From positions 1 to 48,747 of the forward strand of contig JAFUAO010000006.1 of the NCBI GenBank assembly GCA_017460665.1: a DNA stretch of 48,747 nt. Reading direction: 5' to 3'. A model generated the notes under the pieces. It did not search any database and had not been told where the DNA came from. It saw only the letters and a list, made by a program, of their open reading frames with translations. Numbering within the stretch: position 1 is the stretch's first letter; the number at the start of each line of letters is the position of its first letter. The stretch comes from Ruminococcus sp. GTDB taxonomy: Bacteria; Bacillota; Clostridia; Oscillospirales; Ruminococcaceae. A program made the translations under genes and the position numbers. Positions 1 to 19,372 of the stretch are shown here, piece by piece.

Positions 1-3000
1 GGTGAGGACACCGTTCTCGATAGTGAAGGTGATGTCGGTAGTTACCACGAATCCGCTGGGAGCCGCCTCCTCGTGGAGGGTGTATGTTCCGTCTGTCAGG
101 CCCTTGATCAGGGTCGATGTGCTTCCGGATGTCCAGATGAGTTCTGTGCCTGCGCCGCTCTGGAGCTTCGCATCTGTTCCGAGCTCGAAGTCAACGTGGA
201 ACTCGATAGCATCGCCGTTGGAGTCAACGCCGGTGAGCTTGAGTTGAGCGCCCTTCACCTCGTCGCCGAATACGTCGGCCTTGCTGATCTTCACGTCAAC
301 TGCGATCGTGGTGACGATCGTTGTGGTGGCCGTTGTGGTCGCTGTTGTCGTTACCGTCGTAGTTGTAGTTGTCTCAGTCGTTGTGACTGTTGTAGTTGTG
401 GTCGCATCGTCGATGATGAGGCCGGTGAGCACTGTAGTAGTGGTCGTCGTCACCTCAGCAGGACTCAGCGTTGTGACTGTAGTGGTCACGGTAGTTGTGG
501 TTGTTGTGGCTGTAGTTGTTGTAGTTGTGGCCGTTGTGGTGGTAGTGGTGGCTGTAGTGGTGGTAGTGGCCGTAGTTGTTGTAGTTGTTGCTGTAGTTGT
601 TGTGGTAGTGGCCGTAGTTGTTGCGGTAGTGGCAGTAGTCGTTGTGGTAGTGGCCGTAGTTGTTGTAGTTGTTGCTGTAGTTGTTGTGGTAGTGGCTGTT
701 GTGGTGGTAGTTGTGACTGTAGTTGTTGTGGTAGTTGTTGCTGTTGTTGTAGTAGTTGTGGCTGTTGTTGTTGTAGTAGTTGCTGTAGTGGTAGTAGTAG
801 TGGCTGTTGTTGTTGTAGTGGTGGCTGTAGTGGTTGTCGTTGTAACTGTAGTTGTTGTAGTAGTGGCCGTAGTAGTTGTAGTAGTGGCCGTAGTCGTTGT
901 AGTGGTGGCTGTTGTTGTAGTAGTTGTGGCTGTAGTTGTTGTAGTCGTGGCCGTAGTGGTTGTAGTTGTGGCCGTAGTAGTTGTAGTGGTGGCTGTTGTG
1001 GTGGTAGTTGTGGCCGTAGTGGTGGTAGTTGTTACAGTAGTTGTTGTGGTAGTGGCTGTAGTAGTTGTGGTAGTGGCCGTAGTTGTTGTAGTTGTGGCGG
1101 TAGTTGTTGTAGTTGTGGCCGTAGTGGTTGTAGTTGTGGCCGTCGTTGTTGTAGTCGTTACGGTCGTTGTTGTAGTTGTGGCCGTAGTGGTTGTAGTTGT
1201 GGCCGTCGTTGTTGTAGTCGTTACGGTCGTTGTTGTAGTTGTGGCTGTTGTGGTGGTAGTTGTTGCTGTAGTTGTTGTAGTTGTGGCTGTTGTTGTGGTA
1301 GTTGTTGCTGTAGTTGTTGTAGTTGTGGCCGTAGTTGTGGTAGTTGTAGCCGTAGTAGTGGTAGTTGTAGCCGTAGTTGTGGTAGTTGTTGCTGTAGTTG
1401 TTGTAGTTGTGGCCGTGGTTGTTGTAGTTGTTACAGTAGTAGTTGTAGTTGTAGTAGTCTCAGTAGTAGTTGTAGTTGTGACTGTTGTAGTGGTAGTTGT
1501 AGCCGTAGTCGTGGTAGTTGTAGCCGTAGTTGTTGTAGTAGTCTCGGTAGTAGTGGTGGTAGTCTCGGTAGTAGTCGTAGTGGTAGTCGTGGTAGTGGAG
1601 GTGGTCGTCACGTTGACCATCTCAGGATCGAAGGGATCCTCGGCCAGCGATCTGGTCTCGTCCACGGTGGTCTCAAGGTACGCCTTACCGTCCTTAACGA
1701 CGAAGGTGATGTCGTCGGCCTTAGCGTAGCCCACGGGCACCTCTGTCTCGCTGAGAACGTACCTTCCGTCCAGCAGCCCCGTCAGCACCTTGGGATTTTC
1801 CTCCTCGGTGGTCCAACTGATCGGCTCGTCTGTCCAGAATGCGTCGCCGGTGAAGCTGTCGGGCTTCTCGGTGGTCTTATCGGCTGAGATCATGGTCAGC
1901 TCCAGCGTTGCGGAAGGCGAGCTCTCGTCGGTGCTGTCGAAGGTCTTCGTGATCGTGATCTTGGAGATGTCGTCCAGAACAACGATCCTCGTTGTGCCCT
2001 CCTGAGCCTCGATCTTGGCGTTGCCCTCGGTAATAGAGGCTGTTGCTGAGATCTTTCCGCCGGTGATGTTGAAGTCGAACTTGCTGCTGATCTTCAGCAG
2101 GCCGTCGGGCGAAGCGGTCTCCTTCAGCGAATAATCGCCGTCCGGGAGCCCTACGATCGTGTCGCCCTCCTCGGTGGAGGTATACTTCACGCCGATGATC
2201 TTCTCTGAGTCGCTCTCATCGTAAACTGCGGTCAGCTTAGTGCCGTTTGCAGCGATGATGTGCTCCCAGTTAGCTGTTGTCAGCAGATCATTAGTCAGTG
2301 TCAGCTCTGCGCCGGCAACGTTCACTGCTCCTCCCTCAGTAGCGAGCTGCTTGCTGATCTGGAGGCTCCTTGTGAACATCGAATCGCAGGCGAAGATCTT
2401 GTTGCTGTCCTCAACAGCGTAATAGCTGCCATCGGTGTTGTCGGCCTGGTCGTTGCGCTCGTCGTAGTCGCCGACTATGATGCCGTTCTTCACCGTAAAG
2501 GTCAGGTCGCTCTCGATGACCGTATACTCTGCCTTAGCTCCGCTGGCGTCGGTCAGCTCCACGAGCTGTCCGCTGCCGGTATCCGCCGATTCATGGAGAG
2601 TGTAGGTACCGTCGGGCAGGTTCTTTATCGTAGTTGCAGAAAGTCCGGACTTCCACTCCAGCTCAGTGCCGTTCTCGGCAGTCAGGAGCTCTGCGCCGTC
2701 GCCCAGTGAAACTGTGGTAAGGTCGAATACGATGTCTCCGCCCTTGCTGTCCTTGCCTGTGAGCGTCAGCTTGGCTCCGCTCAGCTCGGACTGACCTGTG
2801 ATGTCCATTTTGCTTATGCTTATAGTAGCATCGTCACGCATGATGACTGTGCTGCCGTCTGCCTCACCGTGTCCCTCGGGAGCGGAGTCGATCGTGATCG
2901 AGCCGTCCTTGTTGACTGTGAACTTGATCGAGCCGTCCAGCTTGTCATAGCCCGCAGGCTCAGTGTTCTCGATGAGCTCATACTGTCCGGGCTGGAGCCT

Positions 3001-6000
3001 TGAAAGGATCGTCTCAGCATTCCCGGACTGGAAGGTGATCTCGGTGATGTATTCCTCTGTGGGAGCATCGCCTACGTCTGTGGTCTTGCGTGAGCCGTCG
3101 GGGTTAAGTGCAGGTCCTACCGATGTTACTGTTGCGGAGAACTCTCTTGCAGCAGTTGCGGTAGTAGTGACCTCGCCCTCCTCGGCCTGGCCGGTAACGA
3201 TGTAGTAGCCGACTACGCCCTTCAGGTTCTGTCCGTCGAGAGCTCTGATAGTGAGCAGAGCACCGCTGAGCTCGTCCTGACCGGTGATGAAGCGCTTGCT
3301 GATATTGGCAGTGAGCAGCTCGTTGATCATAGCTGCCTCTGTTGCTGTATCGTAGCTGTCAGCGCCGATCGTGAAGGCCACGGCACTGCTGTTGACCTTA
3401 TAGCCAAGAGGAGCGGTATCCTCAGTGAGAGTGTACTCGCCCTCGGGCAGGCCGAAGATCTCGGCAGCGTCCTCGCCGGAGGTGAAGGTGATCGTCTTAG
3501 CGTCGTTATCGACTGTTATGTCGGTATTGTATGAATATACCTGTGAAAGGTCTGCGTCGGAGGGAGCGCTGATCGTCAGCTTCGCACCGGGGAGCTCCTC
3601 GCTCTTGCCGATCTCATGCTTGCTGATCTTAGCCCTTGTGGGCTTGTCCTCCATCTCGACCATGTTGCCGTAGTCCTCGGCTGTGATGCCTTTTTCGGGC
3701 TTATCGGTGCTGCTGTAGATCATCAGCCCGTCGTAGACTACGAAGTAGATCGACTCGGCGATCTGATAGCCGTCAGGAGCGGTGGTCTCGGTCAGCTTAT
3801 AAACTCCGTCCGTAAGGGCGATGCTGTGTCTGCTGCCGTCTGTGGTCCACTGATCGATGAGCTCCTCATCGCCTTCGTCTGCGAACGTCATGCTGTAGCT
3901 GTCGCCTGTATCCTTGGAAACTGTGCCTACCTTCTCCACCTTGAGCTCTGCGCCCTCCAGATCGAAGCCGTTGGCAGCGTCCTTCTTGGTGATGCCGATG
4001 CTGCCCTGCTTCTCGTCGGTCATGACGATAGTCCTGTCGTCCAGCTTTGTGGAAACGCCTGTGCTGTCCGCTGAGATGAGGTAGATCTCACCGTCACGGA
4101 TCTCAAATCTTATGTCAGTTGCAACAGCGTAGTTCTCGGGAGCTGTCTCCTCATGGAGCTCATAGAAGCCGTCCTCAAGGCCCTTGATAAGGGTGCTCTT
4201 TCCGGCCTCGGTACGGGCGAAGGTCAGTCCGCCGTCCTTGATCTGAGCTGTAAGGGTGTCATCTCCTCTTGTGATCTTTACGCCGGTGATGTCAGCAGCA
4301 GTAAGTTCCTCCTTAGCAGCGTAGCTGTCGTCCTCATAGCGGAAGATGATCAGCTCTGCGCCGTCGATCTCGGAGCCGTAAGCGTCCTGCTTGCTGATGA
4401 TCACTGTGTCCTCACGGACTGCGTCGCATACCGTGATCTTGTCCTCCTCCACAAGGTAGCCCTCGCTGGAGGTATCGTCCACGATCGTTCCGGTGTTCTC
4501 GCCGGAAACTGAAACTGTTCCGTCGGCTGCGATGTCGAATGTAAGAGCTGTCTCGATCACTGTGTAAACGTTGCCGTCGCCGTCAGTGATCTTGCCGTCG
4601 GCTGTCTCAGTGAGGGTGTAGGTGCCCTCGGGAAGTCCCTTGATCGTCACGTCTGTGCCGTTGGAGGTCCAGGTGATCTTTCCGTCAGTGATCTCCACCT
4701 CGGGAGCTCCGCTGACGCTGACATCTGAAACGTCCTCAGCGCTGAATGTGCCTGTGATCGTGATAGTTGCGCCGTTTACCTCGGTCTCGCCGTTGATGCC
4801 CACCTTGCTTATAGTGAGCTCGTCCTGACGGACTGCGTCGCATACCGTGATCTTGTCCTCCTCCACAAGGTAGCCCTCGCTGGAGGTGTCGTTTACGATC
4901 GTTCCGGTGTTCTCGCCGGAGACTGAAACTGTTCCGTCGGCTGCGATGTCGAATGTAAGAGCTGTCTCGATCACTGTGTAAACGTTGCCGTCACCGTCAG
5001 TGATCTTGTCATCGGCTGTCTCGGTGAGAGTGTATGTCCCCTCGGGAAGTCCCTGGATCGTCACGTCTGTGCCGTTGGAGGTCCAGGTGATCTGCCCGTC
5101 AGTGATCTCCACCTCAGGAGCTCCGCTGACGCTGACGTTTGAAACGTCCGCAGCGCTGAATGTGCCTGTGATCGTGATAGTTGCGCCGTTTACCTCGGTC
5201 TCGCCGTTGATGCCCACCTTGCTGACGGTCAGCGTGGAGGCAGGAGCGGTCTTGTTGGTAACGGATACGGAATTTGCTGTGAATGAGTACAGATCGTCAG
5301 AAGCTGACTCCTCTGTGTCGATGTAGCCTCCGCTTATAGTGAAGGTCTTTGCCGGTGCCTTGGCATAGTCTCCGGGAGCGTAAAGCTCTCTGAGAGTATA
5401 GGTGCCGTCGGGCAAGTTAGTTACGATGAAGGGCGAGCCGTCAGTTATCCATGCTGCTGAGTTTTCGGCAACAGTGAAGGTCTGAGGATCGTCGCCTGTA
5501 GACTGTATAGTCTCGCCGGCCAGCTTGACGCTGTCAGGGAACTCTGCTGAGCCGAAGCCCGAAGCATTCTTGAGCTCAAGGATAGCGCCCTCGAGCTGAT
5601 CGCCCGCCTCGTTCCACTTGAGGAAGCCCACCTGTGTCTCGTTTGAAACAGAGTTGAGAACTGCTGCGGAATCGCTGGTATTGGTCTGTGAGAATACTAT
5701 ACCGCCCTCAGAATCGTAGTTGACGATAGCCTTTGCACCGTCAGCGCCGGTGATCTGGGTGTCGATAGTCTCGCCTGAGCCAACGGGCTGGCCGTTTTCG
5801 TCAAGCTCGTATACATAGTATGTGATAGGTGCAAGGTCTGAGAAGCCGATCTCCGGCAGGAGGACCTTGACAGAGGCTGATGTGGTCTGTCCGTCAGCAG
5901 CATCGACTGCTGCTGTGAAGGAGGTATCAGCAGAGGATACATTGCCGTTCCCGTCATCTGTCTGTACCTGGACTGCCTCCAGCACCAGATCGCCGTTGTC

Positions 6001-9000
6001 GTCGAACTTGGGCGAGCCGGCCTTTACCTGCTCTGACTCCGGCTTGCCGGCGTTGTACTCAGCGGCTTCCTCAGCGGTATAGGTCGCTGCACGGAACACG
6101 CCGAAGGTGAACTCTGCCTGGCCGGAAGCTGAGCTGTAGCCGTCGATGCCAAGATACTTGGTGACTGTCAGCTCGGGCTGGATAGTCTTGGTAGTGTTGG
6201 TGATGGAAACTGTCTCCTTGGTATTGTCGGACGAGAGCGAAATGGGCATATAGCTTGCGATGTACTCGTCTGAGTCGTCGGGCTGTATGATCTGAGCGCC
6301 GTCTGTGTACAGAACGGTGTAGTTCTCGATCTTTGTGCCGTGAGCGATAGGAGACATGGTGTCGTCTATCTCGAATACATAGTAAGCGCCGTCCTGAGGG
6401 ATGTCAAAGGAAGCTGTCTCGCCGTCCTTGATGACCGCTGTCAGCGAATCATAGAGGGCGAAGCTGCTAAGGTCTGTTCTGTCGATGTTATCCAGAGACT
6501 CCAGCTCCTCCTCGGTAGGATCAGCCTTTCTGAGGATAGCGTTCTCCTCAGGGATCTCGAATACGCCGATCCGGAAAGTCTTGTCTGCGCTGTCAGTACC
6601 GTCGTAGCTCTTAGCTACCTCAAGGGTGAATATCTTGAGCTCCTCGTTGGTGATGAAGGCCTGAGCCTCGTGGTCGTCCTTGGTAAGGCCGATCGCAGAG
6701 CTTGCCTGAGCGTCGTACTGCTTCCCGGACTCAGCATCGTAGATGTAGTCGGTAACTGCCTTGTCGCCAACAAGAGCCTCAGGAGCAATGACGCCCTTGG
6801 CATTCGTCTCGAGGATCACATAGTATGAGCCGTCCTCGGCGATAGGCAGGTTGTTGAAGGTCAGGGTCTCGCCTGTAACGGGTGATCCGGCAGTCTTGCC
6901 CTGGATAGTCACTGACTGGATATCGCCTGCTCTTCTGTAGGAGCTTCCGTCCTTAAGGAGGTTCCCCTCAGAGTCGCAGAGGAATGCGCCGAAGTAGAAG
7001 GTGTCCTTAGTGCCGTTGTAGGCAGGGATAAGGGTCTTCTCTAACCGGATAGTTCCAACTATCAGCTCATTGGAGATGTCAGTGGTGAGGTCAGCAGCAC
7101 CGCTCACAACATTGACAGTAAAGTCAGGATTGAGCCCTGTGATAACTATATCACTGTCTGATACGCTTACATATGAAGCTGTCGTGATCGGTGTAGGCCA
7201 TGCCCATGGATTAAGACTGAACGTTTCAACGTTGGAGCCCTGTGTGATAGTTATATTGGCTGAACCATTGGAATAAGCCAGATCTATCTTGTTTCCATTT
7301 GCAGCAGCCTTGCCGCTAAGAGTAAGTGTTCCGTTATCGTAAACGATGTACTCGCTGTCAGAAGTGCCGCCTGAGAAGGTGCCGGAGAACGTCTCGATGT
7401 AGTTCTCCACATCGGTATCCTCGCTCACGAACTCAGTACCGTTGTAGGTGATCTTCTGCTCAGGAGTGGACTTGAGGATATTGCCCTCCTTGTCGGTCTC
7501 AAAGACATAGAGAGTGTCTGTGGGCACGAGGTTCTTGAATTCGAGGGTCTCGGTATTGCCCTCCTCGCTGCCGGTCATGGTCAGGGACTTAGGCGTTCCG
7601 AAGAGCTCGAACTCATCGCCGTTCTTCGTGAACAGTGCGAACCAGAAGGTGTTCTCCTCAGTGGAATTGGTCTTATAGGTCTTGTTGACAGTGATCTTCG
7701 CCTCAGACTCCTTCACCCAAACGCCGACCATGGCGGGCTCGGAAACGACTGTATCGTTCCAAGACAGGCCTGTCTTCGCATCGTGGGTCTTGTAGGAGTA
7801 GGCAAAGCTGTTCCAAGCTACCTTGTCGTTCGCTAAGGCGTCAGCAGTACTCGTTGCTGTAACGTCTGTGAAGGGAGATACCTTTCCGTCGAACTCAACT
7901 GTGATATAGTCCTCAGGTGTGAGGATCAGATCCTCGCTGAATACGATGCGGAAGGTGGTCTTTGTGGTGTCGTAGTCGGTATCCCAGATCATCTGGTCGT
8001 TCTCGCCGGACCAGTCGCCGGAATACTCGTCCAGGTTCGCATCGCCGGAGGTATAGGTGATAGTGTAATCGCTGGGATCAACTGTCTCCTCCGCAGAGCC
8101 TGAACGGATCTTTACGGTGAATGTGCCGGGCACCAGCTCAACAGGGAATGCCGAGCCACGCTCATAGGTGATGATGCCCTTGTCGCCGACGTAAGGCAGT
8201 CTGTCGATGATGGTGATGTTCTCCATGCTGTTGGCCGGGACCTCAGTTCCGTCCGGACGTGTCACTTTGGGGAGAGCACCGCCTCCCTTATTGACTGACT
8301 TAGCGCCGTTCTTTACGTTGAGGGTGTAGTGGATAACGTCGCCCTGGAGTCCCTCAACTACTCTTCCGTACTCCTGAGTATCTGCCTCATCGAAGCGGTC
8401 ATCGGAAACGTGCTTGATCTCATCGCCGTAGCCGTTGTTGAGATACTCCTCGCCGTCCTTCTCGTAATCGCTGATCTTTTCGGGAGTGGGATAGGTGATA
8501 GTCTTGTATGACAGAGTGTTGATGCCGCCGATCTGCTCGGTAGCCTCAGCCCAGACTGTCTTGTTGCCCTCATAGGTGCCTTCCTTGACGGTCTTGTTGG
8601 AGAAGCCGTCGTCAAAGGTGACATCGACGTGGTTTGTGACTGCTCCAACAGGAGTGATCCAGCTATTCAGCTCTTCGTCATACTCAGCACTGGAGGTGTA
8701 GAAGGTGATGTCTACATAGTCTCCGGGAGCGAGGGTAAGGTCGGTCTTCTCGAAGCGGAAGCCAACGGTCTTGCCGCCGGTGCCGTCGGGAGTGGTGACT
8801 GCTTCGCCCTTGTTTCCGTCCTCATCGTAGAAGAAAGCGTCAACAGTGCCGCTGCCGCCGTTGGAGGAGGTCCATGAGGCCTTCATACACCCAGCATATT
8901 CCTCAGGGAATGAACCGCCAGCCGACTCTGGAAGATCAACTTTTTCGTCATAAGCTAGGCCGTAGAAACGTGATCCGCTGGGGATCTTGTCCTTTACGGT

Positions 9001-12000
9001 AAAGCCTTCCATGTTGATGATGTCGTACTCGTCGTCGTTGTTGTTGGAGATCCTGATCGTCCACTTAGCGCCGTTGCCCCAGTAGTTGTCAGGCATGATA
9101 ACGTCTGAAACGCTCTCGCCCTGCTTCTCGACACCGGGAGCGATGGTCTCTTCCTGGAGGATAAGGTCAGCTGTAGCTTCATTTGTGGTCGAGAATACAG
9201 CCTCAGCAGCCGATCCGTAATTCTTGATCACCTTGGCTTGCGCTACATTGTTCAAGTCAAGAAGAACGACCTGACCATTATTCTTGGCATTCTCGATCTC
9301 TGCGACCTTAGAGTCAGAAAGTCTAAGCTCATAGAATATGATAATAGAATTGTTTGCACTTGTACCGTTGTCGATAAGGTCAGTGTTCTTGACAACATAT
9401 GATACCTTGCCATTACTGCCGTATATTATCTCGATATTATCAGCAGAAATAGGCTCCATATTAAGATAGCTCTCACCAAACTGTGTCAAAGAAGTACTGT
9501 TCATGATCGTTGCGCCGTAATAGGCTTCGATCGAGCCAGGTACCAGTTCCATACCCTCAGGTATGGCATCATCTATCCTGTAAGTATAGATATCGCCGTC
9601 AAACTCCATGTTTGCATGAGCATTACCCTTAACAGCATCGTAGAGAGACAGAGCATATCTGTACGTCTTTCTCTCATTAGCTGATGTCTTTAAAGCCTCT
9701 TCAAGGTTTTCAGAGTCAATGAGCTTCTTCTGGAAAGCAACTTCAACTGTATTATACTCATCTATCTGCTCTTTAACAGCTGTGCCTTCAATAGGTTTAA
9801 CTATGGTTTGTGGCGCACTTCCTTCATTTTCACCAACAAACGCCTTGATCAGTGAAGGTCCTTTGCCTTCATACTCTACAGTATCCTGGAAAGGATTCTC
9901 TTCTGGCTTTTCCTTTATATCATCGATCGGTCCGCTGTAGCTTGTATAGACACTATTTTTACCATCTTCAAATGCACGCTGATTTTGCTGCGAGAAAAAC
10001 GGTTCAGATGAGATCTCGAAAACATATGCAAAAGTTATAGAGCCGCCTTTAGAAACGATCACATCATCACTTGACGTAAGCGTAAGTGAAATATCTGCAT
10101 TCTTGATCATATGATCGTTTTCTGCATTTGTATTGACCTTATAATCTACATTATATTTATTTGCTGTCTCAGATGTCCCGTTTCCTATTGCTTTACCGCG
10201 ATCATCAGTTGTAGAAGAATATTTATCGCCTATTGATACGATACTGTTCCCAGTAATATCAACAACTGTCATCTCAAGAGTCTTCCAGTTTACATAGCAT
10301 CCGGGACCATCGCCCCTGGTCGTACCGGAAAGAACATCATAAAGATTGAGCGTCGTCCAATCCTTTTTGGAATTGTTGGTAACCGTGATGTAGTTCGTGA
10401 TCTTGTTGCCGGCCATTACTACACCGGGCTCTTCGTCGATAAGACCTGCTTCCAGCTTATCCGGAACACTTGTCAGCGGACCGTCCACCTTAGCGAACTT
10501 GTCCACCTTCATGGCGTTCTTGTCCACTACAGATGAGGTGACCTCTGAATCCACCGTCTTGCCGGCGATGTTCATCCTACCGGTGTTCTTCAGCTCAGTA
10601 GGAGCTCCGCCCTCTGCGTCGTGGAGGTCGGACACCTTATAGGTGATCCTGAGAACAGCGCTGTTCTCTACCTCCTGGCGGCAGGTATAGGTCAGAGTGT
10701 TGTCGATCAGTGTATACTGCTTGTTGGTGAGCTCAACAGGCTCGCCGCCGTCAGTTATGATCTCTACCTTCTCCACCGTGCAGAGAGCGTTGCCCTCTGT
10801 GTCGTTTATCATGGGGAGATAGTCGGTGAAGGTGATGTCATAGCGGAGCCTTGATCCGGAGCCGGACTCCACATAGTTCCTGCCGGAGTAGGTCAGGTCA
10901 TAGGTGGCCGTGCCGCCTGATACGTCCATGAACTTGCTGGCAGTACCGGAGCCGTCTGTGATCGTGGCTGTCTTGGCAAATCCGCCGGGCTCGAACTTGG
11001 TCTCAGAGATAGTTACTGAGTACTGCTTGTCGCCGACGCTTGCGGTATTGGTGTGCTCGCCTGTAGTGCCTTCATTGATATAGCCGTGGACAGCGATATC
11101 CACATAGGTTCCCTTGGGAACTACGCCTATGTTGATCCTGCCGTCGCTGGGCCATGGGATCTGGTCTGTCCAGGGATCTGTTCCTGAGTAGGTGCCCTCA
11201 GCCTGTCTTATATAATAGTATGTGGGGGTGAACCAGTCAGAAGAAGCGATCTCGTCTAGGACTGTCAGAGCCTCAGAATCCAGAGTACCGTTGTTGGTGA
11301 CCTTGATTCTGAACCACTCTGTGGGGTCTGCGTTATAGTCGGCCTCGGAGTAGCTTCCGTACTGGGCGTACTTCTGGATACCGATGATAGCCTCAGCAGG
11401 CTTGATCGGGACAGTAACGCCTGTGTCGGTGCCGTCGACCTTAGCGTTGTTGTTGAGGTCGCCGTCGGAGAGGTCATCGCTGATGCCGCTGAACTTCACC
11501 TGGATCTTGGCAGTTGTTCCTGCTGCGATCTGGCCGATAGTCCATGAGGTGCCGGTGAGGTCCTGGGTCTGGCCTCCGTTTTCGAGGGTAATGCTTGAGG
11601 GGGTGCCCAGCTTAGCGATGATAGAGGCAAGGTCCGTATCCTCAACGGCCACGTTCTTTGCAGTTGCATCGCCGGAGTTGGTTATATTGATCGTGTAAAC
11701 TATGTCCTGTGGAACTCCGCCGTTCTGGTAGAAGGGATTGCTGACAGAATTGTTGTCAGCGTCCTTTGAGAGGACAGCAGCGCTCTTGCTGGCGCTGATC
11801 TTAGGCTCGCCGACGTGGACCTTGATGTCTACGCCGTCGTTCCTTGCCAGTGAGCCGGAGTTTGCAGTTGCCGAGTTGTGGAAGTATTCTCCTTCGGCGC
11901 CCTCTGCATTGATCCTGATCTTCACATCGACAGTCACAGAGTCCTCAGGCTCTAGGTCGCCCAGAGAAACGCCGCCGCTGAAGAGGTCGTCGCCGCTGAT

Positions 12001-13680
12001 AGTTACGGGAGAGCCGTTCTTCGTTGCTGTGATAGAGAGAATCTCGCTGGAATTTATGGTAGCAACGCCTCCGCCGAGGATATCCTCAAGGTGAACGTTC
12101 TCCAGCTTGAGAGTTCCTGTGTTGGAAACTACGATACGGTAATTTACGTCCTTGTCAACTCCGCTGTATACCTGTGCGGTATCGGCGGTCTTGGAGACGG
12201 ACATATCCGTCTTGGTCTCCTTGATCGGAACATAGGCCGTTGAGGAGACGTTCTCGGAATTCTTTGCTGTGTTGGAGCCGTTGCCGGCGGCTGCGTCGTC
12301 CTTTACCTTGCAGACAACGTTGACATCGATCGTCTGACCGGGTGCGAAGGAGTCCACATTGATCGTGTCTCCTGAGAAGGTCACGTCAGCGGTGCTGCCG
12401 TTGTCGGAGAAGGAAACGAACTCCAGACCGTCGCCGGCAGTATCGGTAATGGTGAAGTTGGCCAGAGCCTTACCGCCGTTGTTGGTATTCTTGATGTTGA
12501 AGGTCACGGTGTCGCCGGCCATTGCGAAGGACTTGCCGGTGTCCACACTGACAAAGGTCTTCGTAAGGTCGGTAACGTCAGCCTTGGACTCCTTTATCGG
12601 GATCGTTGCAGGCTTCACGCCCAGATCCTTGGGAGTATCGCTGTTGTAGCCGTAGGCCTTGACGTCGAGGGTATTTTTCAGGTCTCCGCCCTTGAAGGAG
12701 TCGCCTACCTCTATGCAGCTCAGTGCAAGAGAAGCATCAGCAGAGAAGGGATCCATTTCCGCATAAGGAACTCCGTCGGAAACGTTGGTGTTATCGGCCG
12801 ACCACTTGACTACAGCCTTATTGCTGCCGTCCAGAGTGACGCTGTCGATAGTTACACCGCTGATAGACAAGGCTGCCTTTACCTCGTCTGCGCTCTTGAA
12901 GGTCAGTCCGGCCGGGAGCTCGATCGTGTCGATGAACTCCAGCCTGTCTGCCCAGAGGACGCCTGTCTCGGAGGACGGGCCTGTGGGCGTGGCCGACAGC
13001 TTGAACTCTGCCTTGCCGGTCGCAAAGTCCTTAGACTCCAGCGAAGAGGTGGTGGCAGACTTGTCGTCGGACCAGTTGAGAGCGGACTCAGCCGTGATGC
13101 TGCCGGTAGTGGACTGTCTCCAAATGTCGTTGGTGACCAGCTTCACAGTGGCCGTTGTGCCGTTCTCGGTTATACCGTTTGCGAACATACCGCTGAGCTG
13201 GATAGTCTGAGTTGCGCCGTTTTTAACGGAGAACTCCACATACCGCTTGCCCGTAGCGGCATCGTAGTGCAGCGTATAGCCGTTGTACTTAGCGCCGTTC
13301 GTGAAGCCGTTGCCACGGAAATTCGTCAGCAGGATAGAGTCCGGGACCTCCAGCATATAGCTGGTGGAGCCGTTCATGATAGCGTTGTTCCCGCTGATGG
13401 TGATGACCATCTTGAAGGCCTCGCCGGACTCGACACTTGTGATGTTCGAGCCGGAGGAGTCCTTGAACTTGACCGTGGCGTTGGTCAGAACATTAGGTGC
13501 GCCCCAGCCCGGACCGATCCCAGGCATACCGAAGCCCGGCATGGCGAAGCCTAAGGGAGCGCTGTCGGCCTTCAGCGGTACTGAAAAGAACGCTGAGGGT
13601 ACGCTCATGATGACCATTGCCAAAGCAAGCAGGATACTCAGCGCCCTTTTTCTGACGGTTGCTGCTTTACTTTTATGCAT
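1..13680 (-). CDS. Giant multidomain surface adhesin (SpaA/Cna_B and DUF11 modules, Thr stalk), C-terminus off window
   Basis: One frame runs without a stop from the ATG at 13680 (AAGGGGG ribosome site 7 bases upstream) to the left edge, giving at least 4560 residues. Residues 1-40 are a long signal peptide (KSKAATVRKRALSILLALAM..., Ala-rich end), followed by a Gly/Pro/Met-rich bit. Residues about 350-1900 hold DUF11-like beta modules (for example VPQDIVYTINITNSGDATAK near residue 634). Residues about 1990-2650 hold four modules of the type KTFRIGVFEIPEE, AEFTFGVFRAATY, resembling pilin isopeptide domains. Residues about 2680-4025 hold about ten SpaA/Cna_B-like modules, each ending in a loop such as LPEGTYTLTE or LTDGVYKLTETTAPDGY, whose Glu is the usual isopeptide catalyst. 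A Thr-heptad stalk follows, then another SpaA module (YTLHEEAAPSGFVVTTDITF) at the edge. This architecture is typical of sortase-anchored adhesins or pilus-like stalks. The LPXTG anchor is expected outside the window and not seen. The ligand is unknown. Confidence 0.9.
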   Translation of the reverse strand, partial: MHKSKAATVRKRALSILLALAMVIMSVPSAFFSVPLKADSAPLGFAMPGFGMPGIGPGWGAPNVLTNATVKFKDSSGSNITSVESGEAFKMVITISGNNAIMNGSTSYMLEVPDSILLTNFRGNGFTNGAKYNGYTLHYDAATGKRYVEFSVKNGATQTIQLSGMFANGITENGTTATVKLVTNDIWRQSTTGSITAESALNWSDDKSATTSSLESKDFATGKAEFKLSATPTGPSSETGVLWADRLEFIDTIELPAGLTFKSADEVKAALSISGVTIDSVTLDGSNKAVVKWSADNTNVSDGVPYAEMDPFSADASLALSCIEVGDSFKGGDLKNTLDVKAYGYNSDTPKDLGVKPATIPIKESKADVTDLTKTFVSVDTGKSFAMAGDTVTFNIKNTNNGGKALANFTITDTAGDGLEFVSFSDNGSTADVTFSGDTINVDSFAPGQTIDVNVVCKVKDDAAAGNGSNTAKNSENVSSTAYVPIKETKTDMSVSKTADTAQVYSGVDKDVNYRIVVSNTGTLKLENVHLEDILGGGVATINSSEILSITATKNGSPVTISGDDLFSGGVSLGDLEPEDSVTVDVKIRINAEGAEGEYFHNSATANSGSLARNDGVDIKVHVGEPKISASKSAAVLSKDADNNSVSNPFYQNGGVPQDIVYTINITNSGDATAKNVAVEDTDLASIIAKLGTPSSITLENGGQTQDLTGTSWTIGQIAAGTTAKIQVKFSGISDDLSDGDLNNNAKVDGTDTGVTVPIKPAEAIIGIQKYAQYGSYSEADYNADPTEWFRIKVTNNGTLDSEALTVLDEIASSDWFTPTYYYIRQAEGTYSGTDPWTDQIPWPSDGRINIGVVPKGTYVDIAVHGYINEGTTGEHTNTASVGDKQYSVTISETKFEPGGFAKTATITDGSGTASKFMDVSGGTATYDLTYSGRNYVESGSGSRLRYDITFTDYLPMINDTEGNALCTVEKVEIITDGGEPVELTNKQYTLIDNTLTYTCRQEVENSAVLRITYKVSDLHDAEGGAPTELKNTGRMNIAGKTVDSEVTSSVVDKNAMKVDKFAKVDGPLTSVPDKLEAGLIDEEPGVVMAGNKITNYITVTNNSKKDWTTLNLYDVLSGTTRGDGPGCYVNWKTLEMTVVDITGNSIVSIGDKYSSTTDDRGKAIGNGTSETANKYNVDYKVNTNAENDHMIKNADISLTLTSSDDVIVSKGGSITFAYVFEISSEPFFSQQNQRAFEDGKNSVYTSYSGPIDDIKEKPEENPFQDTVEYEGKGPSLIKAFVGENEGSAPQTIVKPIEGTAVKEQIDEYNTVEVAFQKKLIDSENLEEALKTSANERKTYRYALSLYDAVKGNAHANMEFDGDIYTYRIDDAIPEGMELVPGSIEAYYGATIMNSTSLTQFGESYLNMEPISADNIEIIYGSNGKVSYVVKNTDLIDNGTSANNSIIIFYELRLSDSKVAEIENAKNNGQVVLLDLNNVAQAKVIKNYGSAAEAVFSTTNEATADLILQEETIAPGVEKQGESVSDVIMPDNYWGNGAKWTIRISNNNDDEYDIINMEGFTVKDKIPSGSRFYGLAYDEKVDLPESAGGSFPEEYAGCMKASWTSSNGGSGTVDAFFYDEDGNKGEAVTTPDGTGGKTVGFRFEKTDLTLAPGDYVDITFYTSSAEYDEELNSWITPVGAVTNHVDVTFDDGFSNKTVKEGTYEGNKTVWAEATEQIGGINTLSYKTITYPTPEKISDYEKDGEEYLNNGYGDEIKHVSDDRFDEADTQEYGRVVEGLQGDVIHYTLNVKNGAKSVNKGGGALPKVTRPDGTEVPANSMENITIIDRLPYVGDKGIITYERGSAFPVELVPGTFTVKIRSGSAEETVDPSDYTITYTSGDANLDEYSGDWSGENDQMIWDTDYDTTKTTFRIVFSEDLILTPEDYITVEFDGKVSPFTDVTATSTADALANDKVAWNSFAYSYKTHDAKTGLSWNDTVVSEPAMVGVWVKESEAKITVNKTYKTNSTEENTFWFALFTKNGDEFELFGTPKSLTMTGSEEGNTETLEFKNLVPTDTLYVFETDKEGNILKSTPEQKITYNGTEFVSEDTDVENYIETFSGTFSGGTSDSEYIVYDNGTLTLSGKAAANGNKIDLAYSNGSANITITQGSNVETFSLNPWAWPTPITTASYVSVSDSDIVITGLNPDFTVNVVSGAADLTTDISNELIVGTIRLEKTLIPAYNGTKDTFYFGAFLCDSEGNLLKDGSSYRRAGDIQSVTIQGKTAGSPVTGETLTFNNLPIAEDGSYYVILETNAKGVIAPEALVGDKAVTDYIYDAESGKQYDAQASSAIGLTKDDHEAQAFITNEELKIFTLEVAKSYDGTDSADKTFRIGVFEIPEENAILRKADPTEEELESLDNIDRTDLSSFALYDSLTAVIKDGETASFDIPQDGAYYVFEIDDTMSPIAHGTKIENYTVLYTDGAQIIQPDDSDEYIASYMPISLSSDNTKETVSITNTTKTIQPELTVTKYLGIDGYSSASGQAEFTFGVFRAATYTAEEAAEYNAGKPESEQVKAGSPKFDDNGDLVLEAVQVQTDDGNGNVSSADTSFTAAVDAADGQTTSASVKVLLPEIGFSDLAPITYYVYELDENGQPVGSGETIDTQITGADGAKAIVNYDSEGGIVFSQTNTSDSAAVLNSVSNETQVGFLKWNEAGDQLEGAILELKNASGFGSAEFPDSVKLAGETIQSTGDDPQTFTVAENSAAWITDGSPFIVTNLPDGTYTLRELYAPGDYAKAPAKTFTISGGYIDTEESASDDLYSFTANSVSVTNKTAPASTLTVSKVGINGETEVNGATITITGTFSAADVSNVSVSGAPEVEITDGQITWTSNGTDVTIQGLPEGTYTLTETADDKITDGDGNVYTVIETALTFDIAADGTVSVSGENTGTIVNDTSSEGYLVEEDKITVCDAVRQDELTISKVGINGETEVNGATITITGTFSAEDVSDVSVSGAPEVEITDGKITWTSNGTDVTIKGLPEGTYTLTETADGKITDGDGNVYTVIETALTFDIAADGTVSVSGENTGTIVDDTSSEGYLVEEDKITVCDAVREDTVIISKQDAYGSEIDGAELIIFRYEDDSYAAKEELTAADITGVKITRGDDTLTAQIKDGGLTFARTEAGKSTLIKGLEDGFYELHEETAPENYAVATDIRFEIRDGEIYLISADSTGVSTKLDDRTIVMTDEKQGSIGITKKDAANGFDLEGAELKVEKVGTVSKDTGDSYSMTFADEGDEELIDQWTTDGSRHSIALTDGVYKLTETTAPDGYQIAESIYFVVYDGLMIYSSTDKPEKGITAEDYGNMVEMEDKPTRAKISKHEIGKSEELPGAKLTISAPSDADLSQVYSYNTDITVDNDAKTITFTSGEDAAEIFGLPEGEYTLTEDTAPLGYKVNSSAVAFTIGADSYDTATEAAMINELLTANISKRFITGQDELSGALLTIRALDGQNLKGVVGYYIVTGQAEEGEVTTTATAAREFSATVTSVGPALNPDGSRKTTDVGDAPTEEYITEITFQSGNAETILSRLQPGQYELIENTEPAGYDKLDGSIKFTVNKDGSITIDSAPEGHGEADGSTVIMRDDATISISKMDITGQSELSGAKLTLTGKDSKGGDIVFDLTTVSLGDGAELLTAENGTELEWKSGLSATTIKNLPDGTYTLHESADTGSGQLVELTDASGAKAEYTVIESDLTFTVKNGIIVGDYDERNDQADNTDGSYYAVEDSNKIFACDSMFTRSLQISKQLATEGGAVNVAGAELTLTNDLLTTANWEHIIAANGTKLTAVYDESDSEKIIGVKYTSTEEGDTIVGLPDGDYSLKETASPDGLLKISSKFDFNITGGKISATASITEGNAKIEAQEGTTRIVVLDDISKITITKTFDSTDESSPSATLELTMISADKTTEKPDSFTGDAFWTDEPISWTTEEENPKVLTGLLDGRYVLSETEVPVGYAKADDITFVVKDGKAYLETTVDETRSLAEDPFDPEMVNVTTTSTTTTTTTTTTETTTTTTETTTTTTATTTTTTATTTTTTVTTTTTTETTTTTTTTVTTTTTTATTTTTTATTTTTTATTTTTTATTTTTTATTTTTTATTTTTTATTTTTTATTTTTTATTTTTTVTTTTTTATTTTTTATTTTTTVTTTTTTATTTTTTATTTTTTATTTTTTATTTTTTATTTTTTVTTTTTTATTTTTTATTTTTTATTTTTTATTTTTTATTTTTTATTTTTTATTTTTTATTTTTTVTTTTTTATTTTTTATTTTTTATTTTTTATTTTTTATTTTTTTVTTTTTTATTTTTTATTTTTTATTTTTTATTATTTATTTTTTATTTTTTATTTTTATTTTTTATTTTTTATTTTTTVTTTVTTLSPAEVTTTTTTVLTGLIIDDATTTTTVTTTETTTTTTVTTTATTTATTTIVTTIAVDVKISKADVFGDEVKGAQLKLTGVDSNGDAIEFHVDFELGTDAKLQSGAGTELIWTSGSTSTLIKGLTDGTYTLHEEAAPSGFVVTTDITFTIENGVLT
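300..1606 (-). repeat. 21-bp-period repeat encoding Thr6-Ala/Val/Glu heptads
   Basis: About 1.3 kb inside the adhesin gene is made almost only of ACA/ACT/ACC/ACG Thr codons, with every seventh codon usually GCC (Ala), sometimes GTA (Val) and, toward the SpaA side, GAG (Glu). It would form a rigid, extended stalk of about 435 residues, probably O-glycosylated by analogy with Thr-rich linkers of ruminococcal cell-surface proteins. Codons are mixed, so the units are not exact copies, but the 21-base period is visible throughout. Confidence 0.92.
4414..5241 (-). repeat. Tandem duplication of a 414-bp (138-residue) SpaA module
   Basis: Copy one is 4414-4827 and copy two 4828-5241. They differ at only about twenty positions by eye, mostly third codon positions. 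Each encodes a module starting LTISKVGINGETEVNGATIT and carrying the LPEGTYTLTETAD loop. The other SpaA modules of the protein are far more diverged, so this is a recent internal duplication and a likely site of copy-number change by recombination. Confidence 0.9.
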
Positions 13681-13958
13681 AGCATTTCCCCCTTTTCATT
13701 ATAATTTAACAGCCGGCTTTACTGGTTATTGATTTTTTACCAAAAGTCGACTGTTAGTTTAGCGTAATACTATAGCAATTATATAATTATTATATAATAT
13801 TTCTGAATGAAAGTCAATCAAAAAGCGAAATTGTGAAAAATAAAATTAAATTTTGTAACAGTCTACAAAGACCAAAGAGAAACTTTGTAGGAGATCACAG
13901 AAAAAAGTTACTCCCTGTAAATTCAGCAGGAAATTCTACAGCCGCCCATTTTTGGGCA

Positions 13959-13982
13959 GAAAAAAGCTCCGCAGGGCGGAGC
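13959..13982 (-). terminator. Rho-independent terminator after the CPBP gene
   Basis: Read on the minus strand, a GCTCCGC/GCGGAGC stem (13966-13972 with 13976-13982) with a 3-base loop is followed by a run of T. It lies about 35 bases after the CPBP stop and closes the four-gene operon that starts at 17119. Confidence 0.85.
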
Positions 13983-13994
13983 GATAGGCAAAGC

Positions 13995-14016
13995 GTATAC
14001 TATTATAATAGTATAC
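13995..14016. repeat. 22-bp perfect AT-rich palindrome
   Basis: The two 11-base halves (GTATACTATTA and its complement) are perfectly complementary with no spacer. It directly follows the CPBP stop codon. A near-copy with one extra base lies at about 36537-36557 upstream of dnaA, and half of it lies at 17140-17150 in the lipoprotein promoter. Confidence 0.8.
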
Positions 14017-14017
14017 C

Positions 14018-14677
14018 TCATTTGAGGCACACGATGAGCAGGTCCCACCAGAAGTGGAGCAGGGCCGGAACGACGATATTTCGGCTTTTCACGAAGCTGA
14101 AGCTGAACACGAAGCTCAGCAGAACGATCGACATGAAGCCTCCGCTGAGGATATTCCCGGCGAAGCTGCCGTGCTGGATCCACGAGGGGAAGTGTATGGC
14201 CAAAAACAGCAGGCTGTTCACGAGGAAGCACTGCCACATTTTATCCTCTCTGTATACAGCGTTCAGCAGCCACCCCCGGAACACGATCTCCTCATTGAAG
14301 CCAACAAAGAGGTAGACCAAAATGAGCAGCGGCGAGAAGTCCTCCGCAAGGGCGATCTTGCCGCTCTGGCGGTACTTGATGATCAGCAGATAGACGGTGA
14401 AAACGAGGAATATAGCCAAAAACAGCGGCCAGCCATGCCTCGGGACGAAGAGTTCCTTCTGGACAAAGAGCCTGTCGTTGTACCGCCTGATCAGCAGCAG
14501 CGCCGGTACTGCCCAGATGAGGGTCTTGCAGATCCCGTCCTGGCTCAGTCCGGATACCGACGTACTAAAGGCGGCCTCCAGCCTCCCGGAGACCAAAAAT
14601 GTCTCAAGGGTCCAGGCTAGAAAGAACAGTAAAATATACAGTATGTAAACTTTTGCATTGCGTTTTTCTTTTAACAT
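14018..14677 (-). CDS. CPBP family intramembrane glutamic endopeptidase
   Basis: This 219-residue multi-pass membrane protein is of the CAAX-protease/bacteriocin-processing family. The diagnostic motif is FNEEIVFRG, with the catalytic Glu pair at 129-130 and Arg134. His162 (AIHFPSW) and the late His208/Asp212 (LLHFWWDLL) match the other conserved family blocks. Hydrophobic segments lie near residues 10-28, 52-63, 85-100, 115-127, 150-165 and 182-200. In Gram-positive bacteria such proteins process or confer immunity to peptides, or act in membrane-protein proteolysis; the substrate here is unknown. It is the last gene of the operon, 9 bases after the DUF2461 gene, and is followed by a terminator. 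Confidence 0.88.
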   Translation of the reverse strand: MLKEKRNAKVYILYILLFFLAWTLETFLVSGRLEAAFSTSVSGLSQDGICKTLIWAVPALLLIRRYNDRLFVQKELFVPRHGWPLFLAIFLVFTVYLLIIKYRQSGKIALAEDFSPLLILVYLFVGFNEEIVFRGWLLNAVYREDKMWQCFLVNSLLFLAIHFPSWIQHGSFAGNILSGGFMSIVLLSFVFSFSFVKSRNIVVPALLHFWWDLLIVCLK

Positions 14678-14686
14678 AAGCTCACC

Positions 14687-15424
14687 TCACCACATGAAAT
14701 CCTGGGTCGGCGCCTTGACCATTTCGGGGCCGGGCTGGTCGGGAACGTCCTCCCGGATCAGCGCCTTGGACAGCTCCTCGATCTGGACGAGCTCGTGGAA
14801 AAAGTCGTTCAGCGGCACCAGCGCCTGGAACAGCTCGGCGGTGTGTTCGGCTATTTTTCGGGAAAAAAGCTCCTTCGGATCCTCAACTCTCAGGTAGGCG
14901 GACAGCCCCTTTTTCAGGAAGAACTCTTCCGCCTCCGGCACCGTGCAAGGCTTCCGGCGCTTGTACTCCTCGCCGCCGATCCGGACCCCGTGGCCGGACT
15001 TTAGCTCTCCGATCATGCGGAGGAATGGCTGCGGATCCTCAGTCAGGCGGCTGCGGAAGCGCTCCATGATCACGGCGTCGGGCTTGGCGATGCGAAATCC
15101 GAACTCGGCGCCCTCCGGCGAAAGCTCGAAGTAGAGGGTGGGTGTCTTGCTCCACCACATCGCATTATACCGAACGTATATCCACATCACGTCCCGGTAG
15201 TGCAGGTACGGCGGGAAATTTGCGTCCCGGTAGATCCGCCCCACCTTGTACATCATGTCCTCGGTCTCGGCGAAGGGTGCGTACAGCTCCTCGCCCAGTT
15301 CCTTAAGCGGTTCGTATATACTCTTAGTATATATTTCCTTGTGGGCCTCGAACCACTCTTTGTTGTTATTCAGCCTGATTCCCATCAGGAAGTCCAATGC
15401 CTCCTGGGAAAATCCGTTGAACAT
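14687..15424 (-). CDS. DUF2461 domain-containing protein
   Basis: This 245-residue soluble protein begins MFNGFSQEALDFLMGIRLNN and continues NKEWFEAHKEIY, the characteristic N-terminal block of the DUF2461 (TIGR02453) family. The middle part (YRDANFPPYLHY..., then a GFRI/RF segment) also fits. Length is close to the family norm. No biochemical function is established for the family and none is claimed here. It lies between the anchored protein upstream and the CPBP protease downstream in the same operon. The ribosome site before the ATG is weak, so translation may depend on coupling to the upstream gene. Confidence 0.87.
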   Translation of the reverse strand: MFNGFSQEALDFLMGIRLNNNKEWFEAHKEIYTKSIYEPLKELGEELYAPFAETEDMMYKVGRIYRDANFPPYLHYRDVMWIYVRYNAMWWSKTPTLYFELSPEGAEFGFRIAKPDAVIMERFRSRLTEDPQPFLRMIGELKSGHGVRIGGEEYKRRKPCTVPEAEEFFLKKGLSAYLRVEDPKELFSRKIAEHTAELFQALVPLNDFFHELVQIEELSKALIREDVPDQPGPEMVKAPTQDFMW

Positions 15425-15448
15425 CGCTCATCACTCTTTTCTCTATTT

Positions 15449-16141
15449 TTAGGTAAATCTCTCGGAATTGCACCAGCTTTTGACGTACTTGTCAAAGGTC
15501 TCCGGGTCACTGTATTTGGTCGACAGATCAATGAAAGGGTGCTCCTCCCAGCCTGATCGGGTGTAATAAGAAATATACGTTCCGTAGAATTCCGGGTCGA
15601 TCGATCTGAACTTTTCCCCGGTAATATCCCTGCCGATCAGGTAGGCGTTGTAGCTGCCGTAGCACTCCGACAGCACCTCAAAAAGGTTGTCGCCGGTGAA
15701 TTTTGTCCTTACGAGGCAGTCGAAAAAGCCGCTGTAGTCGGTGCTGTAGATGTCGGAAAAGCACTTCAGCTCAGCGTCAATTATACCTGGAGTTGATTTT
15801 TGTAGCTCCGCAAGAAATGCCGCCTGGATCTCCTCATGCTGGTAGCTGTCTCGGGGATCAGATCCATCCTCACCGATCCAGACCAGGAAATCTCGCCCAT
15901 TATAGCACAATTCTGCTATGACCTTTCCGTTATACTGCCGGTTGAAAGCACCGCTGCGGCTATCGATCACTGTGCTCTTTATCTGAGGCGTGAAGCCGTA
16001 TTTTTCCTCGATATACTGCGAGATCTGCGGCTTTATATCCTCTTCGCTCTGTTTCTGTTTCTTATCTCGGACCTGTTCCTTATACAACAGTATCCCCCAT
16101 AGTCCTGCGATAAGCAGCAGCAACAAAAATAGTCGTTTCAT
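15449..16141 (-). CDS. Membrane-anchored exported protein, paralogue of the neighbouring lipoprotein
   Basis: This 230-residue protein starts with a basic-hydrophobic anchor (MKRLFLLLLLIAGLWGILLY) without a lipobox Cys, so it is probably held by an uncleaved signal anchor. The exported part shares a clear pattern with the next gene: YIEEKYGFTP, then a VTDS/VIDS block, an IAEL...NGRDFLVW strand, a GSD...YQHEEIQAA block and a DYSGFF block. No known domain is recognised. A GAGGA ribosome site precedes the ATG, which lies 9 bases after the stop of the paralogue. A tandem duplication followed by divergence, with loss of the lipid anchor, is the simplest history. Confidence 0.8.
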   Translation of the reverse strand: MKRLFLLLLLIAGLWGILLYKEQVRDKKQKQSEEDIKPQISQYIEEKYGFTPQIKSTVIDSRSGAFNRQYNGKVIAELCYNGRDFLVWIGEDGSDPRDSYQHEEIQAAFLAELQKSTPGIIDAELKCFSDIYSTDYSGFFDCLVRTKFTGDNLFEVLSECYGSYNAYLIGRDITGEKFRSIDPEFYGTYISYYTRSGWEEHPFIDLSTKYSDPETFDKYVKSWCNSERFT

Positions 16142-16150
16142 GACATTTCC

Positions 16151-17119
16151 TCACTGTATAAAAACTAACGTGTGCTTGCCCTCGTAGAAGATCTTGTCCG
16201 CCTGTAGGTACTCGCCCTCAAGGTGGGTGCGGAACTGCTCGCTGTTGTCATAAAGCCGCATAGTATCGCAGTTTAGCGGCAAAAACAGCGCTGCACAGCC
16301 GCCATCCGGCACCGTGAACGTGTAGTGCCTGTCGTCTGTCTTCTCGACGTGAAGATCCGCCGGCGCTCCGGTACTGTCGCAGGCGACATAGGTCAGGCCC
16401 CCGAACTCGGTCAGCTCGTACTTTTCGTGCAAGCCGCCTGACGCACGAAATTCCTCGATATATAGGCTTTCTTTGAGCCTTTCTCCGGTCTCTCCATTGG
16501 CAGACCAATTGACCTGTTCACCCTTTTCGTCAAGAGCTTCGTCGCTTCGATAGGAGATGATCTGATTATCTTTCTCTGGATCTGTCAATTGGTCAAACCA
16601 GTCAAAATCTCCCGAAAGATCGGCGTTTACGGCATAAACGGCAACTGTACTGTCCTCCAGCACAGTACTCAGATCTTGGCCGTCATAATACTCATTGTAT
16701 AGAATTCTGCCCTGCCCAGTGTAGTCCACCGATCTCATTGCAGAATACTTCGAGATCTCCACCTTTCGAGCCTCAGGGAGGCGGCTCTTCACCTCGTTTT
16801 CAAGGGCAGCCTGGATCTCCTCCTGCTGGTAGTCGTCCATGGCGTCAGAGCCGTCAAATGCCGAATATACGATGAATTCCCGGCCTTCGTGTGTCATCTC
16901 TGCGATAATGTGGTCGCTGTAATAAGTGCCCCACATACTCTCGTGACTATCGGTCACAAGGCGCCTCAGCTCCGGCGTGAAGCCATATTTCTCCTCAACG
17001 TATTTTATCACGTTGTCCTGGGCAATGGCCTCGCCCTCAAGACGGCTGGCCTTCTGCTCTTTGTTCTCACAGGAGCAAAGCATGAGCAGCGCCGCCGCTG
17101 CGATGATCAGCCTTTTCAT
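16151..17119 (-). CDS. Lipoprotein of unknown function (YVEEKYGFTP family)
   Basis: This 322-residue protein has a type II signal peptide: MKRLIIAAAALLMLCSC with the lipidated Cys probably at 17. Residues 38-170 are homologous to the paralogue downstream (YVEEKYGFTP, IAEMTHEGREFIVY, GSDAMDDYQQEEIQAA, VDYTGQG). Residues 200-322 are an extra region with beta-rich character (TYVACDSTGAPADLHVEKTD) not found in the paralogue. It is the first gene of a four-gene operon, behind a good promoter (17145-17173) and a GGAGG ribosome site. It is probably a surface-exposed lipoprotein; the function is not recognisable. Confidence 0.82.
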   Translation of the reverse strand: MKRLIIAAAALLMLCSCENKEQKASRLEGEAIAQDNVIKYVEEKYGFTPELRRLVTDSHESMWGTYYSDHIIAEMTHEGREFIVYSAFDGSDAMDDYQQEEIQAALENEVKSRLPEARKVEISKYSAMRSVDYTGQGRILYNEYYDGQDLSTVLEDSTVAVYAVNADLSGDFDWFDQLTDPEKDNQIISYRSDEALDEKGEQVNWSANGETGERLKESLYIEEFRASGGLHEKYELTEFGGLTYVACDSTGAPADLHVEKTDDRHYTFTVPDGGCAALFLPLNCDTMRLYDNSEQFRTHLEGEYLQADKIFYEGKHTLVFIQ

Positions 17120-17144
17120 CTCATCGCCTCCTTCGTTTTATACT

Positions 17145-17173
17145 ATTATAGCACGATCCGGGCGGAGTTTCAA
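17145..17173 (-). promoter_or_regulatory. Promoter of the lipoprotein-DUF2461-CPBP operon
   Basis: On the minus strand, TTGAAA (17168-17173) and TATAAT (17145-17150) are separated by exactly 17 bases, about 25 bases upstream of the start codon of the first gene. Confidence 0.8.
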
Positions 17174-17207
17174 TAGGGGCAAATTATGGAGCAATATAGT
17201 GCTAATT

Positions 17208-17400
17208 CTTTCCACAAATCAGATCCTGCACTTTCAACATAGTGTTGAAAGAGATGTTAAATTCTTCTCGGAAGCTGTTGAAAACCCTGTGGAAAGGGTT
17301 GAAAACAACGTAATATACAGTATTTTACAGGGTGTATAAGTTGAAAAGCCTGTGGATAAATGGGGAAAATGTGTAAACAATAAAAAAGTATTGTGGAAAA
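17208..17400. promoter_or_regulatory. Cluster of DnaA boxes between divergent lipoprotein genes
   Basis: Within 193 bases I find a consensus box TTATCCACA (minus, 17351-17359), TTTTCCACA (minus, 17392-17400), CTTTCCACA (plus 17208-17216; minus 17288-17296), and the one-base variants TTTTCAACA (minus, 17276-17284) and CTTTCAACA as an inverted pair (17231-17239 and 17243-17251, 3-base gap). The region is noncoding and lies about 17 kb from the dnaA-dnaN origin. It could titrate DnaA, as DnaA-box clusters do in Bacillus, and/or regulate the two divergent genes. Confidence 0.7.
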
Positions 17401-17437
17401 GCACTCCGCAATAAATCTTTGAAAAGGACATGAAATT

Positions 17438-17764
17438 ATGAAAAAGTATTTAGCAATATGCTCCGTTTTTTTAACAATGTTCAGCGCAGTATCCTGCGGC
17501 GCCGACTCCGGACACGACTCCGACTACGACGGCTACTCACGGTACGACAGCCGCTACGACGAGGACGGCCACGACGACCGGACCGACGGGAGGCACGACG
17601 ACGCCGGGGACTATGTTAGCGACGCCGTTGACGGGGTGAAGGACGCCGGCGAGGACATCGTCAGCGGTGTTGGGGACGCTGCCGGGGAGATCGTTGACGG
17701 GCTGGACGGCGAGGACGAGCACCCTGTGACGAGGCGGTCAACGACCAAAAACGACAGAAGATAA
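17438..17764 (+). CDS. Small Asp-rich lipoprotein
   Basis: This 108-residue protein has a lipoprotein signal (MKKYLAICSVFLTMFSAVSC, lipidated Cys20). The mature part is extremely acidic: Asp/Tyr/His/Arg-rich to residue 55 (SDYDGYSRYDSRYDEDGHDD), then amphipathic repeats of Val-Gly-Asp-Ala type (VSDAVDGVKDAGEDIVSGVG), then a basic tail. Base composition is much more GC-rich than the AT-rich leader. It has an AAGGA ribosome site and a terminator right after the stop. The composition suggests cation (for example Ca2+) binding or a disordered cell-wall spacer, but this is inference. Its leader contains the DnaA-box cluster. Confidence 0.78.
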   Translation: MKKYLAICSVFLTMFSAVSCGADSGHDSDYDGYSRYDSRYDEDGHDDRTDGRHDDAGDYVSDAVDGVKDAGEDIVSGVGDAAGEIVDGLDGEDEHPVTRRSTTKNDRR

Positions 17765-17773
17765 CTGACGACG

Positions 17774-17803: not shown

Positions 17804-17868
17804 GTGCCTGTTCTTCCTGTGGGGCTCTCTAAGGAAGGCCTTCTCGGACCACTTTCAGGGCTCTATTT

Positions 17869-19355: not shown

Positions 19356-19372
19356 AATGACCTCCTGACAGC

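Follow-up and report, generated by a model that had tools for sequence, protein, structure and literature searches.

Fibrillar adhesins (PMC9210967; PMC8286594) are very long secreted chains that carry a head at one end, a stalk of repeated domains enriched in Thr, and a presumed wall anchor. We report that a giant gene of a rumen-type Ruminococcus sp. (GenBank assembly GCA_017460665.1), read on the minus strand at 1-13680 of contig JAFUAO010000006.1, very likely encodes a new member of this known kind of protein. The window analyzed is the whole contig (C11; 48747 bases), taken from a genome of 2.87 Mb in 104 contigs. The protein has the repeated-domain stalk in a very long chain by which fibrillar adhesins are recognized. 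It differs from those described in that its head matches no known adhesive family and in that it combines three module classes, set in blocks, with a strict Thr heptad spacer.

The modules themselves have described relatives. The CLIPPER (DUF11) domain of Acinetobacter B9T28_05395 (PDB 9ifr; available portion of PMC12617251) shares its fold with module D1 of our protein and its Lys-Asp-Asn triad with D2, where the triad is complete; in B9T28_05395 the anchor is OmpA-like and the head CshA-like, whereas CLIPPER modules make up only one block here. Pilin-type domains of Spy0128/FctA and DUF7601 share a Lys-Glu-Asn triad with modules P1–P3, and a few members give weak Pfam matches, but the window modules lie under the Pfam cut-off and sit inside a single adhesin chain instead of forming a polymerizing pilin. 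A third likeness is to CnaB2 of FbaB, the parent of SpyCatcher. This fibronectin binding protein domain (PDB 2x5p, 4mls) is matched by the SpaA module sequence at E 0.00064, and the SpaA triads are mostly Lys-Glu-Asp (K-E-D); unlike FbaB, our protein has ten such modules in tandem and one more past the stalk. Judged by titles and abstract openings, none of the papers listed (in the largest listing, the best 10 of 206) describes this protein; no paper combined Ruminococcus, adhesin, SpaA, and DUF11, and no word beginning "ruminococc" occurs in the available portions of PMC12617251 or PMC9210967.

Architecture of the adhesin

From the N-terminus, the blocks are a head, four CLIPPER modules, a region at residues (aa) 901-1989, four pilin-like modules, ten SpaA modules, a Thr heptad stalk, and a further SpaA module. 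Some two dozen small beta-domains and a long Thr rod thus lie in one predicted chain, with module borders placed by motif. Searched as a whole against Pfam, the protein scored 136.9 bits for SpaA in 11 stretches (cut-off 23.1) and 63.6 bits for DUF11 in four stretches, so the hidden Markov model searches suggested by the original prediction bore out these two families; the pilin-like modules P1–P4 stayed below the FctA and DUF7601 cut-offs. A second Pfam scan took ten pieces up to residue 2680, leaving out the SpaA block and stalk. Two pieces, at 75.2 and 52.1 bits, scored above the cut-off for DUF11, and both also passed that of DUF7507 (49.2 and 28.4; cut-off 27), one of them passing NPCBM_assoc as well (34.2; cut-off 24.4); the remaining eight pieces up to residue 2680 matched no Pfam family above cut-off.

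Profile–profile comparison covered 15 modules across eight sequences (the window and seven orthologues) plus the window SpaA set, giving 120 pairs, with rows kept when they covered over half of a module. All six pairs within D1–D4 had probabilities of 93.4–97.7, and all six within P1–P4 had 89.3–98.9. Because these within-block values are high and no other pair rose above 78, we conclude from sequence comparison that the three kinds of module in separate blocks are real. The predicted blocks of DUF11, pilin-like, and SpaA modules are in this way upheld by Pfam, triad residues, and profiles, except that aa 901-1989, about a quarter of the protein, falls outside the three kinds. Full triads predict 13 intramolecular clamps (P1–P3, D2, and S1–S9), and partial triads a further four (P4, D1, D3, and S10).

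All features of the gene are given here on the minus strand. Read by eye, the N-terminus (roughly the first 38 residues; 13567-13680) resembles a signal peptide. Head domain H (aa 63-216; 13033-13494) is well conserved across orthologues and has a low-confidence model, and a second head domain, Hb (aa 217-366; 12583-13032), is beta-sandwich-like in the model. The head has no Pfam family above cut-off, and its profile found no match at E 10 among solved structures; a separate profile, A2, gave weak matches to three chains: a fibronectin binding protein, a pilus assembly protein, and an epimerase. Fold matches of the head model cover model residues 157-450, H itself being model residues 24-157, and we read the integrin and antigen I/II chains that top the fold lists as a common Ig-like arrangement and not as kinship. 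A second structure model, with a pLDDT of 50.9, was too poor for fold claims. In the closest named relative, the Ruminococcus flavefaciens metagenome-assembled genome RUG10602, the head is 83-84% identical, and a sheep-rumen Ruminococcus sp. comes next. An adhesive role of the head is putative.

The block of four CLIPPER modules D1–D4 (aa 367-900; 10981-12582) scores above the Pfam cut-off for DUF11 (PF01345) and has the CLIPPER fold in D1. Conservation among the eight sequences is strongest in D2 (K497 8/8, D533 7/8, N602 8/8), where a Lys-Asp-Asn isopeptide bond is probably formed, as predicted from sequence. The triad is partial in D1 (K374 8/8, N470 7/8, with an Asp that is not invariant) and in D3 (K632 8/8 and D681 7/8, the two residues scored), and its residues are not conserved in D4. 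The following region, aa 901-1989 (7714-10980), has no Pfam match above cut-off and weak profile links (D2/D6 77.7, D6/M9 60.5). It perhaps consists of four to five diverged CLIPPER-like modules, a kinship at which the profiles only hint.

The pilin-like modules P1–P4 (aa 1990-2680; 5641-7713) carry Lys-Glu-Asn triads. Such a triad was invariant in all 20 pilin-like modules that we picked from eleven genomes; when these were run against Pfam, three touched DUF7601 (best E 0.007), two DUF5979, one SpaA, and one FctA (E 0.062). Across the eight sequences, P1 and P2 have the full triad in every one, P3 has Lys and Glu in 8/8 and Asn in 7/8, and P4, scored for these two residues, has Lys in 8/8 and Glu in 7/8. 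The sole match of the pilin-module profile among solved structures, an S-layer chain at E 2.5, was taken as chance. P1 holds about 96 extra residues (about aa 2094-2189; window 7114-7401) between the triad Glu and Asn; it is 216 residues long in the window and in L028 and 247 in L031, but measures 119-128 in the eight other loci placed.

Ten SpaA modules (PF17802), S1–S10, follow at aa 2681-4022 (1615-5640). Counting the module past the stalk (S11), the triad Lys and Glu are present in 11/11; the final Asp or Asn was read by eye in S1–S9, is uncertain in S10 (MVNV), and is cut off in S11. S2 and S3 form a tandem repeat (4408-5223; two copies of a 414-bp unit, 95% matches) that seems to have arisen by duplication not long ago.

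Within the Thr stalk (aa 4023-4459; 304-1614), an array of 21-bp units specifies heptads of six Thr and one Ala or Val (T6-A/V); Tandem Repeats Finder reports it as 49.7 copies at 491-1539 with 80% matches. The 313 codons of aa 4040-4352 comprise 269 ACN, 35 GCN, seven GTN, and two GAN, and all specify Thr, Ala, Val, or Glu. Of 57 Thr runs, 48 have exactly six residues, against 42 of 54 in the main stalk of a second giant protein of this genome (contig C24, below). Among 45 heptad units, third codon positions differ at about 0.51 per site; the absence of change at codon positions 1 and 2 is by construction, because the units were chosen as exact T6-A/V. Stalks of orthologues vary in make-up, and three of the six examined have none before the contig ends. 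The stalk may be stiff or glycosylated. The predicted Thr stalk is present, and it is not the end of the protein, since S11 (aa 4460-4560; 1-303) comes after it and is cut by the contig end.

The reading frame and its orthologues

The claim of at least 4560 residues in one open frame holds. The gene starts with an ATG at 13680, on the minus strand (which corrects the earlier reading and puts the N-terminus there), and stays open for 4560 codons until the contig end cuts its 3' side. Consensus matching places a Shine-Dalgarno-like AAAAGGGGG 7 nt before the ATG (13688-13696) and a promoter-like TTGACT-17-TATAAT with 11 of 12 consensus positions at 13789-13817. Promoter-like sites numbered four in the 601 bases scanned, against 0.9 expected from shuffles, and terminator-like hairpins upstream of the gene, likewise consensus matches, two against 0.7. 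Orthologues in other genomes keep the giant frame, which leads us to reject a chance or artefactual frame; this is a genuine gene with its own predicted start signals. A plus-strand open reading frame (ORF) at 1-1887 was set aside as probable antisense of the stalk region, and a phage origin was dismissed after no near match appeared among 50,697 phage records.

The original prediction placed the gene next to the origin, and in the chromosomal sense this is right: dnaA (35020-36387), dnaN, recF, gyrB, and gyrA lie at 25-36 kb of the window, and dnaA is about 22 kb (21-23 kb) from the adhesin gene start. Flank synteny is present with a sister species (G012/L026). Against window 13691-26000, tblastx gave no match for six other flanks, each only a few kb long and drawn from five genomes (L027 and L030 belonging to one), and the near-origin site is therefore probably incidental; six further orthologue genomes stood outside this comparison.

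Of 125 Ruminococcus genomes, 13 carry the head (aa 63-366), our own among them. A sample of 394 genomes across 168 genera of the order yielded it twice, each time in Ruminococcus. By sequence search, it appears restricted to the genus so far. The orthologue set holds one genome per species, with all copies incomplete. The module order, for which the original prediction knew no described match, is not unique to the window: It is the same in orthologues of the genus as far as their contigs reach.

Paralogues and the wall anchor

Contig C24 (L009 6984-18131; G000:C24) holds a second giant frame, which runs for 3716 codons before the contig breaks off within a SpaA-like module. Proteins of this type resemble ours in their SpaA-like modules (by eye and alignment) and Thr stalk, two complete copies ending in APKTG or APQTG, and are unlike it in having an unrelated head. 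Counting our own, 71 of the 125 Ruminococcus genomes gave a match to the C24-type head, small proteins accounting for the weakest. Periscope proteins are length-variable adhesins whose repeat number differs between close strains.

The suggested check for LPXTG and a sortase reaches as far as S11, inside which C11 ends. Contigs C63 and C66 each carry a partial SpaA-like module, a Thr linker, APKTG, a membrane segment, RTKKDEE, and a stop; their first 141 bp are identical, which presumably marks a branch of the assembly graph. These APKTG ends are candidate anchors for the C11 frame, which reaches its contig end first. The orphan adhesin C-terminus on C66 (L076) shifts frame just past the 141 bp that it shares with C63. 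Of six further giant genes sampled from the genus, three run off their contigs and three stop inside. Two of the latter end in APQTG or APKTG and one in LPEAG, and in all three a membrane segment and a basic tail come next. The genome has six sortase matches, none on C11 (the 3' side of the adhesin gene lies beyond the assembly); two of the matched proteins carry TLSTC.

The post-stalk linkers of C11 and C24 agree at 155 of 162 nt (95.7%), and S11 agrees with the last C24 module seen, the seventh, at 209 of 213 nt (98.1%), against 64-70% for the other six C24 modules; what stands in seventh place in C24 thus directly follows the stalk in C11. In the sister species, the orthologue has a C24-type module past its stalk, 82.6% identical to C24 and 81.2% to that species' own C24-type gene over a mere 69 nt. 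The linker and module identities fit exchange or conversion between paralogues, to which the 69-nt stretch adds little, and such exchange would explain the assembly breaks. We tentatively suggest, as a possibility short of an even chance, that the giant Ruminococcus adhesins form a cassette system in which unrelated heads sit on a shared, exchanged, and resized stalk-and-anchor half. Recombination in the Thr-heptad DNA and SpaA repeats would swap and resize this half between paralogues.

A third Thr-stalk surface protein of the genome (L010 5765-8407; G000:C100) has T5-S-A and T5-K-A heptads and meets its contig end inside them. At L036 (G000:C79:20000-30466), type IV pilin-like genes (by eye) lie beside a sortase match, with a 1004-residue frame ending in LPQTG and a membrane segment.

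Discussion

We favor a fibrillar adhesin over other explanations of the giant frame. The protein could instead be a giant tip pilin, a subunit of a sortase-assembled pilus and not a single-chain adhesin. This is unlikely: C11 has no sortase match across the 35 kb covered on the 5' side of the gene (the 3' side being beyond the assembly), the 18 other ORFs of the window include no pilin family by NCBIfam (the second scan at E 1e-60 only), and the score lies far under the NCBIfam cut-off. A scaffold or spacer of a cellulosome system, with a head that binds enzymes or a partner protein and not a surface, gains something from contig C78 of the same genome (L012 1-5736), where three consecutive Thr-linked proteins resemble cohesin/dockerin scaffolds by eye and the last has an APKTG end. 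Pfam, however, matched no cohesin or dockerin family in the adhesin itself, and we consider such a role very improbable.

Least credible of all is a decaying or mis-assembled frame whose length is an assembly product of repeats. It would suit the 13 orthologues, 12 of which lose the frame or its final part at a contig end while the other (G086) has its stop no more than 100 nt from one, as it would the split copy in G147 and the single TAA in G110. Yet the sequence is unique as far as the SpaA block, and seven orthologues preserve this part with 18-89% identity per module; the triad residues, too, are conserved. Since the gene breaks off at a contig end, or close to one, in all 13 genomes, these assemblies share a blind spot and never show the protein whole.

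As a fibrillar adhesin, the chain would be secreted, and many of its modules would clamp themselves by Lys-Asn/Asp isopeptide bonds into a rod that withstands both pulling and proteolysis. The Thr heptads would serve as a stiff, probably glycosylated spacer near the wall, to which a sortase would join an APKTG-type C-terminus. The head at the far end would bind a surface, be it plant fiber, mucus, or another microbe. The earlier idea of a long fiber holding the N-terminus far from the cell fits this class of protein, and we infer it on that ground.

Pfam covers the pilin-like modules and aa 901-1989 poorly, and both could be starting points for new families. If true, the cassette arrangement would yield tips that have new specificities and stand at varying distances from the cell. 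Attachment of fibrolytic rumen ruminococci is usually explained through cellulosomes; a genus-limited giant fiber with 13, perhaps 17, predicted self-clamps would be a second candidate for attachment beside them.
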